DNA of 37,973 nt, taken from assembly GCA_012519025.1 (NCBI GenBank), contig JAAYQZ010000031.1:1-37973 (forward strand). The letters run 5' to 3'. Origin of the DNA: Bacillota bacterium (GTDB lineage: Bacteria; Bacillota; Limnochordia; DTU087). This document shows positions 5,745 through 36,564 of the stretch, in pieces. Made by a program: the position numbers and the translations under genes. Numbering within the stretch: position 1 is the stretch's first letter; the number at the start of each line of letters is the position of its first letter. Below the pieces are notes generated by a model. That model worked only from the letters and a program-made list of their open reading frames with translations. It was not told the DNA's origin and did not search any database.

Positions 5745-7133
5745 ATGCAGGTTCAAGAAAGAAGACGGCCGCCGATCAAAGTCAGGGACACTTTAACTAT
5801 AGAAATTGAGGGGTTGGGCCATGCCGGCGAAGGTGTGGGCAGGACCAACGGTTTTGCCGTATTTGTGGCAGACGCCATTCCCGGAGATAAGGCCCTTATA
5901 CGAATAGATGAGGTCAAAAAGAACTTCGGACGGGGCACTTTGATAGAACTCCTTCAGATCTCCACCCAGAGGACTGATCCCGGCTGCGAAGTCAGTAAAG
6001 ACTGTGGGGGCTGCCAGCTTCGACACATGGAGTACAGTGCACAACTGAAGTGGAAACAGCAGAATATTATAGATGCCCTGACTAGAATAGGCCGATTTAC
6101 CAATCCGTTGGTTGAACCGGTTATTGGTATGCAGTCCCCCAAACATTATCGCAATAAAGTTCACTACCCTGTTGGTGCATCCAAGGGTAAGTCTGCTTTA
6201 GGTTTCTATAAAAAAGGCAGCCATCAGCTGGTACCGATTAACACATGCCACAACGTTCACCCTCTTTGCAATAAAGCCCTGCAGGTTATAGGACCGCTTC
6301 TACACAAATATGACCTCTCCCCCTACAACAGTTCTGTGGGAAAGGGTTTGCTGCGGCACGTAATTTGCCGTGTCAGTACCACCAACAATGAGCTCATGGT
6401 CATATTGGTGACCAATGATGAGGTTATTCCCCACTTTGATGGTTTACTTAAAGATTTGCAGACATCTTTGCCCGAAATGGTTACTTTGGCCCAAAATATC
6501 AATCACAGCCGCAGTCGTGTGGTTTTGGGACGGAAAACCAATATCCTGTGGGGGGAGCCCTATCTGATAGAAAAGATCAACGATCTCAAATTTGCCATTT
6601 CCCCCAACTCCTTTTTCCAGGTCAACTCCCTGCAAGCTGAAGTTTTGGGCAAGCAAGTTGTGGACTATGCTGCACTTGGGGCAGATAGCCGGGCACTGGA
6701 TTGTTACTCAGGTACCGGAACCCTTGCTTTGCATCTGGCTAAAGCCGGTGCAAACGTTATTGGCGTTGAGGTAGTGGCAGATGCTGTGCGTGATGCTGTG
6801 CTGAATGCCGAGCTGAATGGGTTGCATAAAACTGATTTTCGAGTGGGTCAAGTGGAAACAGTGCTCGCGGAAATACTAAAAGAAGGATCAGTTGATGCTG
6901 CCGTACTGGATCCACCGCGCAAAGGCTGTGAACCAGAGGTGCTGAAAAACGTAATCGAAGCTAAAATTCCTCGGCTGGTCTATGTAAGCTGCAACCCCAG
7001 TTCTCTTGCAAGGGATCTGGCTCTGCTTGGGGAAGGCGGTTATAAGCTGAAGGAGATACAGCCCATTGATATGTTTCCCCACACAAGTCATGTAGAAGCA
7101 GTTGCCCTTTTGACAAGAAGCAGAACTATATAG
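5745..7133 (+). CDS. TrmA/RumA-family (uracil-5-)-methyltransferase, probably 23S rRNA
   Basis: N-terminal TRAM-like domain, Cys motif CGGCQLRHMEY, SAM motif DCYSGTGTLAL, DPPRKGCEPEVL, catalytic VYVSCNPSSLARD. Confidence 0.93.
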   Translation: MQVQERRRPPIKVRDTLTIEIEGLGHAGEGVGRTNGFAVFVADAIPGDKALIRIDEVKKNFGRGTLIELLQISTQRTDPGCEVSKDCGGCQLRHMEYSAQLKWKQQNIIDALTRIGRFTNPLVEPVIGMQSPKHYRNKVHYPVGASKGKSALGFYKKGSHQLVPINTCHNVHPLCNKALQVIGPLLHKYDLSPYNSSVGKGLLRHVICRVSTTNNELMVILVTNDEVIPHFDGLLKDLQTSLPEMVTLAQNINHSRSRVVLGRKTNILWGEPYLIEKINDLKFAISPNSFFQVNSLQAEVLGKQVVDYAALGADSRALDCYSGTGTLALHLAKAGANVIGVEVVADAVRDAVLNAELNGLHKTDFRVGQVETVLAEILKEGSVDAAVLDPPRKGCEPEVLKNVIEAKIPRLVYVSCNPSSLARDLALLGEGGYKLKEIQPIDMFPHTSHVEAVALLTRSRTI

Positions 7134-7182
7134 GTTGCAGCCGACAGTATCCATGCACAGAACGCCTAGGAAGGCAGTTCCA

Positions 7183-8268
7183 TCACACAGACAGCATCTG
7201 TTCCAAAAACGTTTTGTTGCTCAACATAATGGGATCTTCTGGGCGAAAGTGCCGGGCCGCCTCGTTGTGCAGATAAGCCAGGCGATATGCGCCCAGCTTA
7301 CTGTAGCAGACGCAAAGCTGTAAGTGGGGCAGCCAGGTGTATGCCGCCTGATTGGTGAAAGCCAAAAAATTATCACCGGGTTTGGCACGGGTGGCCAATG
7401 TATACCAAAACACAGCGGCAAGGTAATTGCCTGTCTCCAGAAAGTGATATCCCAAACGACAACAGAATTCAGGGCGGGGCGTGTCAAAGGCGAAGGCCCG
7501 CAGCACGCAGGCCACAGCCTTCTCCTTCTGGCCCAAGTTGTAATAACAGTCCGCCATTTTACCACAGCAGGCAATATTGTCCTCTACCCAGCCTTGATTA
7601 TCCTGCAAAAACTTCTCATAAACAGGTATTGCTTCTTGGTAGAGTTTGTGGTCCACTAATTCATTGCCATAGTAGTAAAGATCCCGCGGTGTGAAATTTT
7701 GTCCGTCTTTGATCATAGTCCTGTAGATCCTAAGATTGCGATCACTTGGTGCACCTTCACCATTGTGCTTGCTTTTGTGTACAACTGCCACATCACTGTG
7801 GATGATTGTACCACTCACCTCAAGATACTCATGAACTCGTCCCCGCCATTGAAAATGCCTGCTGCGTTTAACAAGGCGGTTGCGCCGCAAAGAAAAGCTG
7901 ACATTTCCGTATTCGTCAAAGGCCAGATGATAGGGCATTGTAACTACATCAACATCCTTGGCCAGTGTTTCCTTTAACTTGCGGAATTTCTGCTGATCTT
8001 CCGGTGTGAGAACATCATCGGCATCAAGCCAGAAGATGTAATCCCCTGTGGCATAACTGAAAGCCTTGTTTCGTGCTGCAGCAAAATCATCAATCCAGGG
8101 AAAATCATATATACGGCAAGAATACCCGGCCGCGATAGCCTTTGTCCCGTCGTCGGAACCTGTGTCCAGCAAAATAACTTCGTCTGCTAGATGTGCCGCG
8201 CTGTCTAGACAGCGTTCCAGTACTTCCTCTTCGTTCTTTACAATCAGGCAAAGGCTGATAGTTATCAT
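7183..8268 (-). CDS. Glycosyltransferase family 2 with C-terminal TPR-like region
   Basis: ISLCLIVKNEEEVLERCLDS, DGTKAIAAGY, FWLDADDVL (DXD-like); helical repeat C-terminus. Confidence 0.9.
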   Translation of the reverse strand: MITISLCLIVKNEEEVLERCLDSAAHLADEVILLDTGSDDGTKAIAAGYSCRIYDFPWIDDFAAARNKAFSYATGDYIFWLDADDVLTPEDQQKFRKLKETLAKDVDVVTMPYHLAFDEYGNVSFSLRRNRLVKRSRHFQWRGRVHEYLEVSGTIIHSDVAVVHKSKHNGEGAPSDRNLRIYRTMIKDGQNFTPRDLYYYGNELVDHKLYQEAIPVYEKFLQDNQGWVEDNIACCGKMADCYYNLGQKEKAVACVLRAFAFDTPRPEFCCRLGYHFLETGNYLAAVFWYTLATRAKPGDNFLAFTNQAAYTWLPHLQLCVCYSKLGAYRLAYLHNEAARHFRPEDPIMLSNKTFLEQMLSV

Positions 8269-8280
8269 CGGCTTCTCACC

Positions 8281-9393
8281 TCACTCCAAACGAATGACCA
8301 TCAAAGCAGCTCCCAATGCGTTGGATAAGAGCACGGCAATGCCTGCTGCACCGAAAAGCTGCAGTGATATAGTGGAACCGGCGGACAGGGTCGTTGTGAT
8401 CTCATTTTTGAAAGCGGATACGCCCAGCGCCGGTGGGATAATCGATTCTGTTACAGCACTGCCGTTAATCAGTAATTGAGTGCCCAGTAAAAGTGCTGCT
8501 GTTGCATTCAGTTGATATGAAATGCGGTAAGTGCCCGCGATTCCCACTGTGAAGACAGTGTTGGCTCCATTGGCGGTAATATCCGGTGATAGAACCTGGG
8601 CACTGGGCAGTGCAACCAAGGCCGGCCCCAGCAGTGTGCTGATGTTTGGACCAGTGGTATTGGCAACAAAGGCGGCGGTCCTGGATAGATCGGGTCCCGG
8701 TGGCCCTATGCCACCAGCTTCCCCCATCTGACCCTGCGGCCCTTCAGGGCCTGGCTCGCCGGTCGTGCCTGTGATACCGGTGGCACCGGTTGGTCCTGTG
8801 GCACCTGCCGGCCCCCTGCTACCCAGGGGCCCCGGTTCACCTTCGGGACCTGTTGCCCCGGAAGGTCCCTGTGTTCCGGTAGGGCCAGTTGGTCCTGTGG
8901 CTCCTACCGCCCCCGGTGCACCCTGGGCACCTCTGGGGCCCACAGTACCCTGCGGGCCGGCGGCTCCTTGAGCACCGGTAGCCCCGGTGGGACCAGGTAA
9001 ACCCGGTGTACCGACAGGGCCGGTATTGCCTGGTGCTCCCGGGGCGCCCTGGGCAGGACCGGTGGGTCCTGTAGGTCCTGTCGCGCCGACAGCACCTAAA
9101 ACTGCGGGGGCATCAACGGCCATCTGTAATTTCGACTGTAAAAACATTTGACTTTGAGCAGCATTTGCAAGCACATCTTGTATACTCTCGTTTATCTCCA
9201 GAATTTGGTCAAGTGTAGGCGTTTCACCGATCGGTTCGGACGATGTGCCCAAAACATACTGGAGTTTCTCCCCCTCCGCATTGATGACATGGCTGTAGCC
9301 CAGCTGCTCCATAGCGATGGAAGTGATGATGAGATTAAGCACATCATCTCGTGAAAGGGGTGGTGTCGCAACAGGAAAACTCGGTTGTGTCAT
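8281..9393 (-). CDS. Collagen-like triple-helix repeat protein with BclA-like C-terminal domain (A)
   Basis: 370 aa: N-domain [26 protein letters not shown]; Gly-X-Y from about residue 100 to 234; C-terminal [26 protein letters not shown] reminiscent of exosporium collagen-like proteins. Confidence 0.9.
8692..9096 (-). repeat. Gly-X-Y collagen-like repeat of protein A
   Basis: Near-continuous GXY triplets, rich in GPT/GAT. Confidence 0.9.
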
Positions 9394-9424: not shown

Positions 9425-10537
9425 TTAGCTCAAGCGTACAATCATCAAACCTGCACCTGCGGCTGAAGGCAAGAAAGTGACATCACCGGCTAAGCCGAAA
9501 AGCTGCAGGCTTACGGTAGAGTTTGCGGGAACATCAATGATGAACTCCGCGAAAAAGGAAGATAGATTCAAAATGGGTGCTATTGTCGATTGAACCACGG
9601 GATTGCCGTTTAGAAGGATGCGGCTGCTCATAAGCAGAGCCACAGTTGTATTGACTTGGTAGGAAATGCGGTAAATCCCGGCATCGTTAATGGTGAAAAT
9701 GGTGTTGGTTGGATCGACAGCGATATTTGAAGGCAGGACTTGACCGTCCGGCAGCGGTAATAGGGTCCCTCCTAAGGCTACAGTAAGTGTGGACCCGCTG
9801 GTATTGGCAGCAAAAGCCGAGGTTGCGGTGACATTGATACCGGTAGGACCTGTGGGTCCGGTTGGTCCTGTAGGGCCAGTTGCACCAGTTGCACCAAGTG
9901 CACCGGTACTGCCTTGGGGTCCCTGGGCTCCCGTTGGACCTGCAGGGCCTGTATCACCGGTCGGGCCTGTTGCACCCGTGGCGCCGGTGGCACCAGTGAC
10001 GCCGGCAGCGCCTGCCGCCCCTGTGGGCCCAATACTGCCCATTGGACCCGGAACACCTGTTTCACCGGTTGGCCCGGTCGGTCCCGTTGGTCCGGTGGCC
10101 CCTGTTGCTCCTGTGGGTCCGGTTGCGCCCGGTGCACCAACTGCCCCAGCCGGCCCTGTGGCACCTGTGGCACCTTGGGGGCCTGTAGGGCCTCCGGCCG
10201 GTCCTGCAGGTCCGGTGGGTCCGGCAGGTCCCGTCGGCCCCTGCATCACTGAAGAACTTAAGGCGTTTTGCATTTTCGCATTCAGCAGCATCTGATACTG
10301 TGTTACACCGCCCAGTACTTTTTGAGTGCTTTCATTGACGGCCAAAACATCTTCAATAGTGCTCGGTGGGCTCGTGACCCCGGGGATAGTACCTAAAGCG
10401 AATTGGATTTTCTCCCCTTCGGCATTAATGAGATGGCTCAGACCCAGCTCTTCCATGGCAATGGAAGTGAGAATCATTGATATGGCGTCTTCGCGATCGA
10501 TGGGTTCCGGAAGAATTGGAAAACTTGGCTGTGACAT
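9425..10537 (-). CDS. Collagen-like triple-helix repeat protein with BclA-like C-terminal domain (B)
   Basis: 370 aa, same architecture as [30 protein letters not shown] region from residue 100, [26 protein letters not shown]. Confidence 0.9.
9836..10240 (-). repeat. Gly-X-Y collagen-like repeat of protein B
   Basis: Near-continuous GPT/GAT/GPA triplets with one 2-residue interruption (GPAG-GPT). Confidence 0.9.
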
Positions 10538-23950: not shown

Positions 23951-24751
23951 TTAAGCTAATAAGGCCTTCTGATCGGGAAACTCTTCACCACTTGCTTGAT
24001 CAAAAAGATTGAGTAAGTATTCCACAGAGAGCCTTCTTTTGGCTTCTCCTTTGACGTCTAAGATAATCGTTCCATCATACATCATGACCAACCGATTGCC
24101 GTATCTAATGGCATCACGCATATTGTGGGTGACCATAAGTGTAGTCAGTTGCCTGTCTTGGACTATGCGATCGGTCAGCTCCAACACTCTGACAGCTGTT
24201 TTGGGATCCAAAGCAGCTGTATGTTCATCCAACAGCAGAACTTTCGGCTCTCTCAAAATGGACATTAATAAAGTAAGGGCTTGGCGCTGACCGCCGGACA
24301 GCAGGCCAACTTGGGTGTCCAATCGATGCTCAAGGCCTAGTTCCAATATTTTTAAGCGTTCTTGGAAAAGAGTTTTTTCTTTGGGAGCGATGCCGCGGCT
24401 CAACGTGCGCCTCATACCCCGCCTCAAGGCGAGGGCCAAGTTTTCCTCAATGGTCATTTGCGCAGAAGTACCCACCATCGCATCCTGAAAAACCCTTCCA
24501 AACACTTTGGCGCGTTTATGCTCACTGCAGCCGGTCAAATCCTGGCTATCAACAATTATGTGACCCTGATCAACATTGAAAACTCCTGCAATGCAGTTAA
24601 GTAACGTCGATTTGCCGGAGCCGTTACCTCCAATTAAGGTGACATAATCTCCCTGTTTTACATGGAGGCTGAGATTGCGCAAAGCAGCGGTTTCGTTAGC
24701 GGTACCCTGATTGAATGTTTTAGAAACATCTTTAACTTGTAACATCAACAC
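23951..24751 (-). CDS. ABC transporter ATP-binding protein (TrpXYZ-like)
   Basis: GGNGSGKSTLLNCIAG, LSGGQRQALTLLMSIL, VLLLDEHTAALDPKTA. Confidence 0.9.
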   Translation of the reverse strand: MLMLQVKDVSKTFNQGTANETAALRNLSLHVKQGDYVTLIGGNGSGKSTLLNCIAGVFNVDQGHIIVDSQDLTGCSEHKRAKVFGRVFQDAMVGTSAQMTIEENLALALRRGMRRTLSRGIAPKEKTLFQERLKILELGLEHRLDTQVGLLSGGQRQALTLLMSILREPKVLLLDEHTAALDPKTAVRVLELTDRIVQDRQLTTLMVTHNMRDAIRYGNRLVMMYDGTIILDVKGEAKRRLSVEYLLNLFDQASGEEFPDQKALLA

Positions 24752-25670
24752 GCCTCCTTATGCTGTTTTTGATTGGTTCCCAATGCGATTTAAACACCGG
24801 TAGTGCCAATGCAATGGCCACTGTGATGGCTGTAAAGAGCTTTAGATCCGAAGCCGGCATGCCCAGTTCCAATACTAATGCGATAATAAGGCGGTATGTG
24901 ATTGCACCTAGAACCACCGCCACCAAGCGACTTAAAAAACTTCGCCTGGCATACAACACTTCACCAATAATCACAGATGCGAGCCCAATGACAATCGAAC
25001 CGGTTCCCATCTGTACGTCGGCATAAGCCTGTTGTTGAGCAATTAGGGCCCCACTGAAAGCCACAAGCCCGTTGCTGATCATAAGGCCCAGGATAATCAT
25101 GCTGTTCGTATTGATGCCTTGGGATCTCGACATTCTGGGGTTATCTCCCGTAGAGCGAAGTGAGTATCCGATTTCTGTCCCAAAAAACCAGCGCAGCACA
25201 AAGATGGTTATCGCAACGCAAAGCACTGCCACGGCAAGTATAGGCAGTGTTTGACCAAGGCCTAATTGAGTAGAAAATCTGTCTTTGCCGATGCCTAAAT
25301 CTCCAAATACGGTGTAGATTGTTTTCAACCTAAGCAGTGACTGGTTTGCTTTGCCCAAAACGCGAAGGTTAATTGAATAAAGTCCTATCATAGTTAAAAT
25401 CCCGGAAAGTAAGGGGGGGATTCGCAGTTTTGTATGCAATAGACCGGTGGCAAGACCTGCAAGTACCCCACCAATGATGGCAAGTATGGTTGCTTTAAAG
25501 GGATCCATACCACTGTATATTGCTCTGGCAGCAATTGCAGCTCCCATGGCAATACTTCCTTCAACAGTTAAATCCGCGATATTGAGGATTTTATAAGTGA
25601 TATATACACCGATGGTAGTCAAGGCCCACAAAAGGCCCAAAATTACGGCTCCCATGGCTATTTGCAGCAT
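24732..25670 (-). CDS. ABC transporter permease (TrpXYZ-like, branched-chain-type fold)
   Basis: ADLTVEGSIAMGAAIAARAI, LLSGILTMIGLYSINLRVLG, overlaps ATPase gene. Confidence 0.9.
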   Translation of the reverse strand: MLQIAMGAVILGLLWALTTIGVYITYKILNIADLTVEGSIAMGAAIAARAIYSGMDPFKATILAIIGGVLAGLATGLLHTKLRIPPLLSGILTMIGLYSINLRVLGKANQSLLRLKTIYTVFGDLGIGKDRFSTQLGLGQTLPILAVAVLCVAITIFVLRWFFGTEIGYSLRSTGDNPRMSRSQGINTNSMIILGLMISNGLVAFSGALIAQQQAYADVQMGTGSIVIGLASVIIGEVLYARRSFLSRLVAVVLGAITYRLIIALVLELGMPASDLKLFTAITVAIALALPVFKSHWEPIKNSIRRRVDVTS

Positions 25671-25717: not shown

Positions 25718-26683
25718 CTAGTCGATAAAAAACTCCTGCAGATGGGCGGGGATTTCCAGCCCTATGTCTTCGGCAACCTGTCGATTGATCGCGTAGTCGA
25801 AGGTGCTTGCGCCTTCAATGGCCATGGTGGCCGGTGCGGCCCCTTCCTGAATAATGCGGACTGCCATCAAACCGGTTTGGTGGCCTAAATTGAAGTAATT
25901 TATGCCCAATGTGGCCAAAGCCCCGGACACTACCTGGCCTTCTTCGCCACCGATCATTGGAGTTTTGGACTGAACTGCTACTCCATGAATTACCGGTATG
26001 GCTGAAGCAATTATATTGTCTGTAGGTGTGTAAAGAGCATCTATACGTTTGACGATGGCCTGGGCAGCTTGCTGAACTTCGTTGGAATTTGACACAGTCA
26101 TTTCCACATATTCAAGACCAAGATCCTGGATTGCCTGTTTGGCGATTTGGGCTTGCAGTACCGAATTGTCTTCACTTGAAGTGTACAAGATACCGATTGT
26201 CTTCACGTCAGGCACTAAGGTGGTGATCAGCTCAATTTGTTCTTTGATGGGATTCATATCCGTAGTACCGGTGACATTGCCCCCTGGCACTTCATTGGAA
26301 TCGACAAGTCTGGCAACAACATAATCAGTGATCGCGGTACCTAAGATCGGAATATCCGCGGTTTTGCTGGCAATGGATTGAGCGGCGGGAGTGGCGATAG
26401 CCAACACCAAATCCACCTTTTTGCCGACAAAGCGATCACTGATCGTTGACAGATTGGACGCGTCTCCCTGGGCGTTTTGGTAGTCAATCTCAAAATCTTG
26501 TCCCAGGTGAAGGCCGCTTTCCTCCAAAGCCGCCAAAAAGCCCTCGCGAGCAGCGTCAAGTGCCGGGTGTTCCACGTACTGAATAATACCGATGGTTACT
26601 GGGCTACCGGCCCAAGCTCCCTCTACTGATAAAACTACCAAGGCAACCAGCACCAACAAACTTAAAACCCGATTTCTTTGCAT
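25718..26683 (-). CDS. ABC transporter substrate-binding protein (ABC_sub_bind/TrpX-like)
   Basis: Signal peptide; GIIQYVEHPALDAAREGFLAALEESG, NAQGDASNLSTISDRFVGKKVDLVLAIATPAAQ, GTAITDYVVARLVDSNEVPGGNVTGTTD. Confidence 0.92.
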   Translation of the reverse strand: MQRNRVLSLLVLVALVVLSVEGAWAGSPVTIGIIQYVEHPALDAAREGFLAALEESGLHLGQDFEIDYQNAQGDASNLSTISDRFVGKKVDLVLAIATPAAQSIASKTADIPILGTAITDYVVARLVDSNEVPGGNVTGTTDMNPIKEQIELITTLVPDVKTIGILYTSSEDNSVLQAQIAKQAIQDLGLEYVEMTVSNSNEVQQAAQAIVKRIDALYTPTDNIIASAIPVIHGVAVQSKTPMIGGEEGQVVSGALATLGINYFNLGHQTGLMAVRIIQEGAAPATMAIEGASTFDYAINRQVAEDIGLEIPAHLQEFFID

Positions 26684-26707: not shown

Positions 26708-26984
26708 TAAAAAAACTCGCCACCTGTAACAGGGGCGAGTATTCGTCGCGGTACCACCTTGTCTTCGTTGTAAATAATTTACAACCTCAGCAAGCAACCA
26801 TCATTGCTTCTCCAATGTAACGGTTGGATCCCGGCACAGCCTACAGGGTAAATATACCTTTCGGTATGCAGCTCTTAGGATGTATTCACAGCACTCGGAC
26901 CTGCCTTTTTTCACCAAATCAAAGGCTCTCTGAAGGTTTTATGGCACTGCTACTAGTTCCCAGTCATGGCTTTTAAACTATGTT
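26708..26984 (-). promoter_or_regulatory. T-box leader (tRNA-sensing transcription attenuator) with predicted UAC (Tyr) specifier
   Basis: T-box AAGGTGGTACCGCG (26747-26760), Stem I AGTA (26951-26954) opposite GAA-TAC-A (specifier 26882-26884), AGAGAG motif, stem III GTTGTAAATTATTTACAAC, terminator ACTCGCC..GGCGAGT + T7. Confidence 0.93.
26709..26740 (-). terminator. T-box intrinsic terminator
   Basis: Minus strand ACTCGCCCCTGTTACAGGTGGCGAGTTTTTTT. Confidence 0.9.
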
Positions 26985-26990
26985 AAACCA

Positions 26991-27019
26991 AGCATACGCC
27001 TTGGGATAAAGTTTGTCAA
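26991..27019 (-). promoter_or_regulatory. Sigma-A-type promoter of the T-box transcript
   Basis: TTGACA (27014-27019), 17-nt spacer, TATGCT (26991-26996). Confidence 0.8.
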
Positions 27020-35193: not shown

Positions 35194-35274
35194 AACCGTC
35201 AAAGGAGGTCGGTATTGAACCGATAGTCAGTCGCGGTGGGTAATTGAAGGATGGTTAACAAGGAGGTAAGCTTA

Positions 35275-36564
35275 ATGAAAAGGCGTGTATTACTGCTTTG
35301 TGCGGCGGCTTTGCTCATCGTATCTTTGCAGGGTGCAGTAGCTGCCCAAGAGCCGGTGACCATTACGCTTTGGCACGGATGGACCGGTGCATGGACACAA
35401 ACGATAAATGAAATAGTCGAGATGTTTGAAGCAAGTCATCCCCATATCAAAGTCAACCCGCTGGTGGTGCCTTATGATGAGCGGGATACGAAACTGATGG
35501 CCGCCATCGCAGCCGGCGATCCCCCGGATATCATCTTTACTATGACAAATATCGTCTCCTATGCTGCTAGAGATGCCATCGTACCAGTAGATAAACTCAT
35601 GCCCCCAGATCAGCTTCAAGAATACCTTGACTACCAATATCCTTTCTACGAAGGCAACAGATACAAAGGGCACATATGGTCGTTCCATGGGTTTGTGGAT
35701 GCCATTGCTTTGTATTACAACAAAAACCATTTCCGGGAAGTGGGTCTTGATCCTAATGCCCCTCCCAAAGATATCGCTACATTGGATGCGTATGCCGAAA
35801 AACTGACTAAAGTAACCAGTGGTGGTCAAATTGATCGAGCCGGTTTCCTACCGGATGATCTTTATCGCTGGGCTGATGTTTTTGGAGGCAGTTGGCTGGA
35901 TGGTGACAAAATCACTGCCACTCATCCCAAAAATATCGAGGCGGCGAAATGGATGGCTTCCTACTCCGAGAAGTATGATGTGCGCAGAATTACTGCTTTC
36001 AACGCCGGCCTGGCCACAGAAAGGGCCCAGGCTTTAGATCCATTTGTCTCAGAGAGATTTGCCATGCAGAATATGGGGCAGTGGAAGATTCTTGATATCG
36101 ATCGCTATGCACCTGAAGGTTTCGATTACGGAGTTGTGCCCCTACCGGCACCACCGGAAGGCCGGCAAAACTCCATGATTATCCCTTCCGGATATGGCTT
36201 GATTCCCAAAAATGCTAAACATCCTGAAGCCGCCTTGGAGTATCTCTTGTATTGGGTAGGCAAAGGACATGAAGCCGATCGGGCCAAGATATTCACGCTC
36301 GGTGGATGGTTCCCACTTGCTGATGCAGTTACTGAAGAACCTGTTTACCAGGAGTACATTAGAAGGTACCCGGAATTCCAGGTATTTAGTGATTTGCTGC
36401 GCTCCAGTGATCCCACGGGATTCGCCACCCCTGTGGAGCTTTATTATCTTGACAGAATTAACAATGCCAGGGACCGCATCCGACTGCTGCAGGGTGATCC
36501 TGCCCAGGTTTTAGAGCAGGTGCAAAAAGAGGTTCAGGCTGAGTTGGATAAGCTGGAAATATAA
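35275..36564 (+). CDS. Carbohydrate ABC transporter substrate-binding protein
   Basis: Signal peptide; VTITLWHGWTGAWTQTINEIVEMFEASHPHIKV, AAIAAGDPPDIIF; RBS AAGGAGG. Confidence 0.93.
   Translation: MKRRVLLLCAAALLIVSLQGAVAAQEPVTITLWHGWTGAWTQTINEIVEMFEASHPHIKVNPLVVPYDERDTKLMAAIAAGDPPDIIFTMTNIVSYAARDAIVPVDKLMPPDQLQEYLDYQYPFYEGNRYKGHIWSFHGFVDAIALYYNKNHFREVGLDPNAPPKDIATLDAYAEKLTKVTSGGQIDRAGFLPDDLYRWADVFGGSWLDGDKITATHPKNIEAAKWMASYSEKYDVRRITAFNAGLATERAQALDPFVSERFAMQNMGQWKILDIDRYAPEGFDYGVVPLPAPPEGRQNSMIIPSGYGLIPKNAKHPEAALEYLLYWVGKGHEADRAKIFTLGGWFPLADAVTEEPVYQEYIRRYPEFQVFSDLLRSSDPTGFATPVELYYLDRINNARDRIRLLQGDPAQVLEQVQKEVQAELDKLEI

Follow-up and report, generated by a model that had tools for sequence, protein, structure and literature searches.

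The window (the whole stretch of DNA analysed, 37,973 nucleotides) very probably carries a transcription-terminating tRNA-Tyr T-box controlling an importer of tyrosine, and possibly of phenylalanine as well. The leader, its specifier triplet, its T-box bulge and terminator, the downstream operon and the kinship of the encoded binding protein were all directly observed. Together they give a well-supported prediction of what this ABC transporter carries, where annotation would label it a tryptophan or unknown importer.

A T-box leader upstream of a three-gene ABC operon

The window was searched with cmscan and Rfam 15, in which the T-box family RF00230 has a cut-off of 93 bits. RF00230 was the single Rfam match in the window, at 26976–26728 on the minus strand (111.3 bits, E = 5.4e-24), and the match covered model positions 1–219, the full length of the model. 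The features of the leader and the operon are as follows.

26991..27019, minus strand: promoter-like site, TTGACA - 17 nt - TATGCT (read directly)
26728..26976, minus strand: T-box leader (full-length RF00230 match)
26951..26954, minus strand: AGUA, forming the 5' strand of the S-turn that lies above the specifier (sequence and Rfam alignment)
26885..26887, minus strand: GAA, 3' side of the S-turn (sequence and Rfam alignment)
26882..26884, minus strand: specifier UAC (Tyr), with A as the next base, 26881 (Rfam alignment; all 58 homologous leaders have UAC or UUC here)
26753..26756, minus strand: UGGU of the T-box bulge, pairing with an ACCA (A73) tRNA end (Rfam alignment; same in all leaders tabulated)
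26731..26761, minus strand: antiterminator, approximate limits (Rfam alignment)
about 26709..26739, minus strand: intrinsic terminator with U run (read directly; CUCGCCC in common with the antiterminator)
25718..26683, minus strand: substrate-binding protein, ABC_sub_bind, CD0873-like (PF04392, 280 bits; 6hni, E = 1.1e-71)
24732..25670, minus strand: ABC permease (PF02653, 89 bits)
23951..24751, minus strand: ABC ATPase (PF00005, 101 bits)

The promoter boxes lie just upstream of the T-box (TTGACA at 27019–27014 and TATGCT at 26996–26991, with 17 bases between them), exactly as given in the preliminary description of this DNA. Its account of Stem I was likewise confirmed in the sequence: AGUA stands opposite GAA, UAC-A follows GAA, and GGGA and UCCU close the specifier loop. 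The 55-nt stretch containing the terminator has a folding energy of -18.5 kcal/mol, and CUCGCCC serves both as the 5' arm of the terminator and as the 3' arm of the antiterminator, so that the two structures are mutually exclusive. The operon is complete, with a PF04392 binding protein whose start is at 26683, a PF02653 permease and an ATPase, which bears out the link between T-box and transporter that had been proposed.

The specifier reads UAC

The 3' side of the specifier loop reads GAA-UACA-UCC, and the reading frame is the one point that needs care. The source genome has 13 T-boxes; in its pheS, aroF, ilvB and metG leaders one nucleotide separates GAA from the triplet (for example, GAA-G-UUC-A in pheS and GAA-G-AUG-G in metG), and the same spacer in the window leader would give ACA (Thr). 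The Rfam alignment, however, places a gap directly after GAA and UAC on the consensus specifier, a layout 1 nt shorter between GAA and triplet than the commonest one in this genome. The TBDB position rule, by which the specifier is nucleotides 2–4 counted back from the 3' end of the bulge (PMC7778990), gives UAC as well. The tight layout GAA-NNN-R also occurs in the same genome, in the leaders of valS (GAA-GUC-G) and leuS (GAA-CUC-G) and in a Trp leader (GAA-UGG-A, bulge UGGC); for valS and leuS the triplet read in this way is the one that the gene demands. The preliminary description had named the RF00230 alignment and TBDB-type annotation as checks on its tyrosine specifier, and a different codon in the covariance alignment as grounds for giving it up; both procedures return UAC.

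Relatives of the binding protein were collected from one scan of genome contigs, giving 80 loci with 52–73% identity. Of these, 56 had a T-box pattern in the 700 bases upstream (the pattern scan missed the L030 leader, which was found by Rfam). Rfam was applied to eleven of these loci, and nine reached the cut-off, including L100 with two T-boxes, while L077 and L097 fell below it. No T-box above the Rfam cut-off was detected in others, such as the group of L061, L070, L079 and L107 and several Actinomycetota-labelled MAGs. In 58 homologous leaders the specifier was UAC (17) or UUC (41) and nothing else: the first base was always U and the third always C, only the middle base varying between A and U. 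One further leader, that of L097, has a specifier that could not be read confidently and is outside the 58. The bulge was UGGU in 57/57 tabulated leaders. Separately, a scan of L062 revealed an OLE RNA (6867–7469, 439 bits) in an Actinomycetota-labelled MAG; OLE RNA is mainly known from Firmicutes, and this label deserves a check.

The discriminator bases in the source genome are U73 in tRNA-Thr, G73 in tRNA-Trp and tRNA-Ser, and A73 in tRNA-Phe and tRNA-Ile. A tRNA-Tyr gene was not found in the 165-contig draft, in which 40 tRNA matches are present, probably reflecting an assembly gap; six genomes belonging to the same family have a tRNA-Tyr with A73, matching the UGGU bulge. The discriminator A deduced earlier from this bulge therefore agrees with the family's tRNA-Tyr, but the bulge is insufficient against tryptophan when taken alone, because 46% of Trp T-boxes carry U at this position, with G-U wobble pairing (PMC7778990). 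It is the UAC triplet itself that excludes tryptophan.

Alternative frames were weighed against this evidence. A threonine specifier, ACA, with a pump for threonine, would follow from the one-base spacer of pheS, aroF, ilvB and metG, but it is very improbable: the U73 of tRNA-Thr and the UGGA of this genome's thrS T-box disagree with UGGU, Acetobacterium loci have, close to the UGGU T-box, another with UGGA (its triplet in L055 being ACC), the same frame would turn the UUC homologues into UCA or UCG (Ser, G73), and the ligands of the protein family are aromatic amino acids. We consider equally improbable an isoleucine specifier in the -1 frame, AUA, which would make the homologues AUU; both are Ile codons and the A73 of tRNA-Ile fits the bulge, but the first base would belong to the conserved GAA of the S-turn, three leaders with GAG would then specify Val, AUC (the triplet of this genome's ileS leader) is absent from the tabulated homologous leaders, and the family's aromatic ligands again do not fit. 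Threonine, isoleucine and tryptophan were thus each tested as the amino acid specified, and each was rejected. Sequence evidence favours the UAC frame over ACA and, with the Rfam alignment, the TBDB rule, the same-genome layouts, the discriminators and the homologous leaders in agreement, it is near certain that the window leader reads Tyr.

Repeated switching between Tyr and Phe triplets

Mapped on the protein tree, the UAC and UUC states require five changes, and on the leader tree six; in the latter, the window leader stands beside a UUC leader, L030, with support of 96/82. Since UAC and UUC leaders are intermixed on the leader tree, the triplet appears to have changed in place by single substitutions. 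The trees thus suggest that the triplet has switched between Tyr and Phe at least five times in this clade, based on the protein tree. Both states can occur together: L100 has two adjacent copies, one with a UAC and one with a UUC leader, and the pairs L032 (UAC) and L030 (UUC), and L103 (UAC) and L101 (UUC), each come from one MAG.

An unusual arrangement was observed in L082 (3380–3840; Eubacteriaceae UBA6119, DIVZ01000003.1), where tandem Stem I units, UAC followed by UUC, precede a single antiterminator and terminator. Rfam scores only the second Stem I unit, and L073, a close relative, has the UUC unit only. The tandem is possibly a two-amino-acid sensor or an assembly artefact.

A tentative idea, which we hold to be rather less probable than its negation, is that the RNA and not the protein sets the shortage to which the operon responds, a pump of dual Tyr/Phe specificity being retuned by a single A/U change of the middle base. 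If so, duplicate pumps, or duplicate Stem I units as in L082, would let one genome answer both amino acids. The clade offers a natural experiment, with similar UAC and UUC leaders sometimes in one genome, in which the co-evolution of regulatory and transport specificity is testable.

The binding protein and the substrate of the pump

The closest solved structure to the binding protein is CD0873 (6hni, phmmer 245 bits), followed by 3lkv (Phe bound) and 3lft (Trp bound). CD0873 has been shown to bind tyrosine both in a crystal structure, where Glu-263 contacts the hydroxyl, and in thermal shift experiments, and it is selective for this amino acid; a Trp binder has Gln-284 where CD0873 has Tyr-279 (PMC6816091). 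The window protein keeps the equivalents of Glu-263 and Tyr-279, where TrpX SP1069 has Ala and Gln; Gln-284 of SP1069, the indole-binding position, is not conserved and is Tyr in the window protein. With the NCBI TrpX equivalog NF041285 the window protein scored 314.1 bits, below the cut-off of 390. The operon had been called TrpXYZ-type, a term that holds at the superfamily level (PF04392), while the protein itself misses the TrpX cut-off and is nearer to CD0873.

Glu-263 and Tyr-279 are invariant in the UUC (Phe) copies and also occur in L085, a paralogue under a UGG T-box, and so do not separate Tyr from Phe. They mark the CD0873 side of the family and do not single out tyrosine, and we dropped Glu-263 as proof of tyrosine, given its presence in every UUC copy and in the UGG-controlled paralogue. 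In L085, the UGG T-box (505–746) precedes a PF04392-type protein (986–1855), a counterexample to a simple rule linking pocket and specifier. A post hoc scan for residues tracking the triplet gave hints: of the five lineages, two had Met-266 replaced by Gln and three had Asn-278 replaced by Ser. All 39 of the 39 UUC copies have Met at residue 266; in the window clade, L103 and L100a it is Gln. This post hoc result hints at a pocket that changed together with the triplet in two lineages, though not in the others.

It is possible, although doubtful, that the operon answers tRNA-Tyr while its pump carries mainly phenylalanine or all aromatics, only the RNA having changed specificity. The same two selectivity residues in UAC and UUC copies and the intermixing of their leaders are consistent with such a pump; the tyrosine selectivity of the nearest solved relative and the contrast at residue 266 argue against it. 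A true TrpXYZ tryptophan transporter with an odd specifier is far less probable still. It would accord with the superfamily and with UGGU, which is common in Trp T-boxes, but the triplet is UAC and not UGG, the TrpX score is below the cut-off, and Tyr replaces the Gln-284 of TrpX. By comparison, L138, which is above the TrpX cut-off, does have a T-box read as UGG and a pocket with Ala-263 and Gln-279. Based on its sequence, the pump likely imports tyrosine and may import phenylalanine too. For the clade, most T-box-controlled relatives read UUC and the protein misses TrpX and nears CD0873; "aromatic, Tyr/Phe" is hence the safe description.

Genome context

A second PF04392 gene of the source genome, on contig C24, is 50% identical and common to the whole family, and Rfam gave no T-box above its cut-off upstream of this gene. 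For the copy under T-box control, no close counterpart was found in the ten other genomes of the family or in the other class members sampled in a phylum-wide set, which suggests that this copy was acquired by transfer. Prephenate dehydrogenase (PF02153) is present, so the genome probably makes its own tyrosine and import would supplement biosynthesis. The lipobox cysteine is absent from the binding proteins at 25718–26683 and 35251–36564. An Omp85 protein (G000:C131, 11011–11871) is a sign of an outer membrane, and a binding protein without a lipobox fits this; the Firmicute-like host bacterium probably has such a membrane.

Further features of the source genome were recorded. A T-box at G000:C55 23469–23727 (L002; GAA-UGG-A and UGGC, Trp, G73) precedes an SBP_bac_5 peptide-type binding protein (PF00496), and two tandem T-boxes whose specifiers are not obvious precede a class I/II aminotransferase (G000:C140 178–672; L013, L008). 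The window itself encodes two neighbouring collagen-like proteins (8281–9393 and 9425–10537), both with long repeats of the GPTGPTG type.

Predicted mechanism

The T-box mechanism at this operon would be the standard one, with tRNA binding, antitermination and ligand predicted from the features above. Under tyrosine shortage, uncharged tRNA-Tyr (GUA) would base-pair through its anticodon to UAC and through its ACCA end to UGGU; the antiterminator would then form and the three-gene operon would be transcribed. The binding protein would then capture tyrosine, possibly also phenylalanine, outside the cytoplasmic membrane for import by the pump. With charged tRNA-Tyr, the terminator would form and transcription would stop.

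Comparison with known systems

The leader resembles the B. subtilis tyrS-type T-box (RF00230) in its long Stem I with S-turn, apical loops and K-turn motif, its Stem II and IIA/B region, its UGGN bulge and its terminator/antiterminator switch, but it controls a transporter and not a synthetase. The C. difficile CD0873 transporter (6HNI) has the same Pfam family, Glu-263 and Tyr-279, and similar transporter parts. Its sequence is nevertheless distant and CD0873 is a lipoprotein, unlike the window protein, and the published CD0873 descriptions examined do not mention a T-box such as the one before the window operon. In Streptococcus suis trpXYZ (PMC9382623), a T-box likewise precedes an operon of binding protein, permease and ATPase from the same superfamily; its specifier is Trp, whereas the window has a Tyr specifier and a CD0873-type pocket. 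Wels et al. 2008 described T-box-controlled transporters for Tyr (NhaC) and Phe (NSS), using the triplet to infer the substrate; ABC transporters appear in their table for Trp, and none for Tyr or Phe (PMC2494555). The same inference from the triplet is made here, for a transporter family other than NhaC and NSS.
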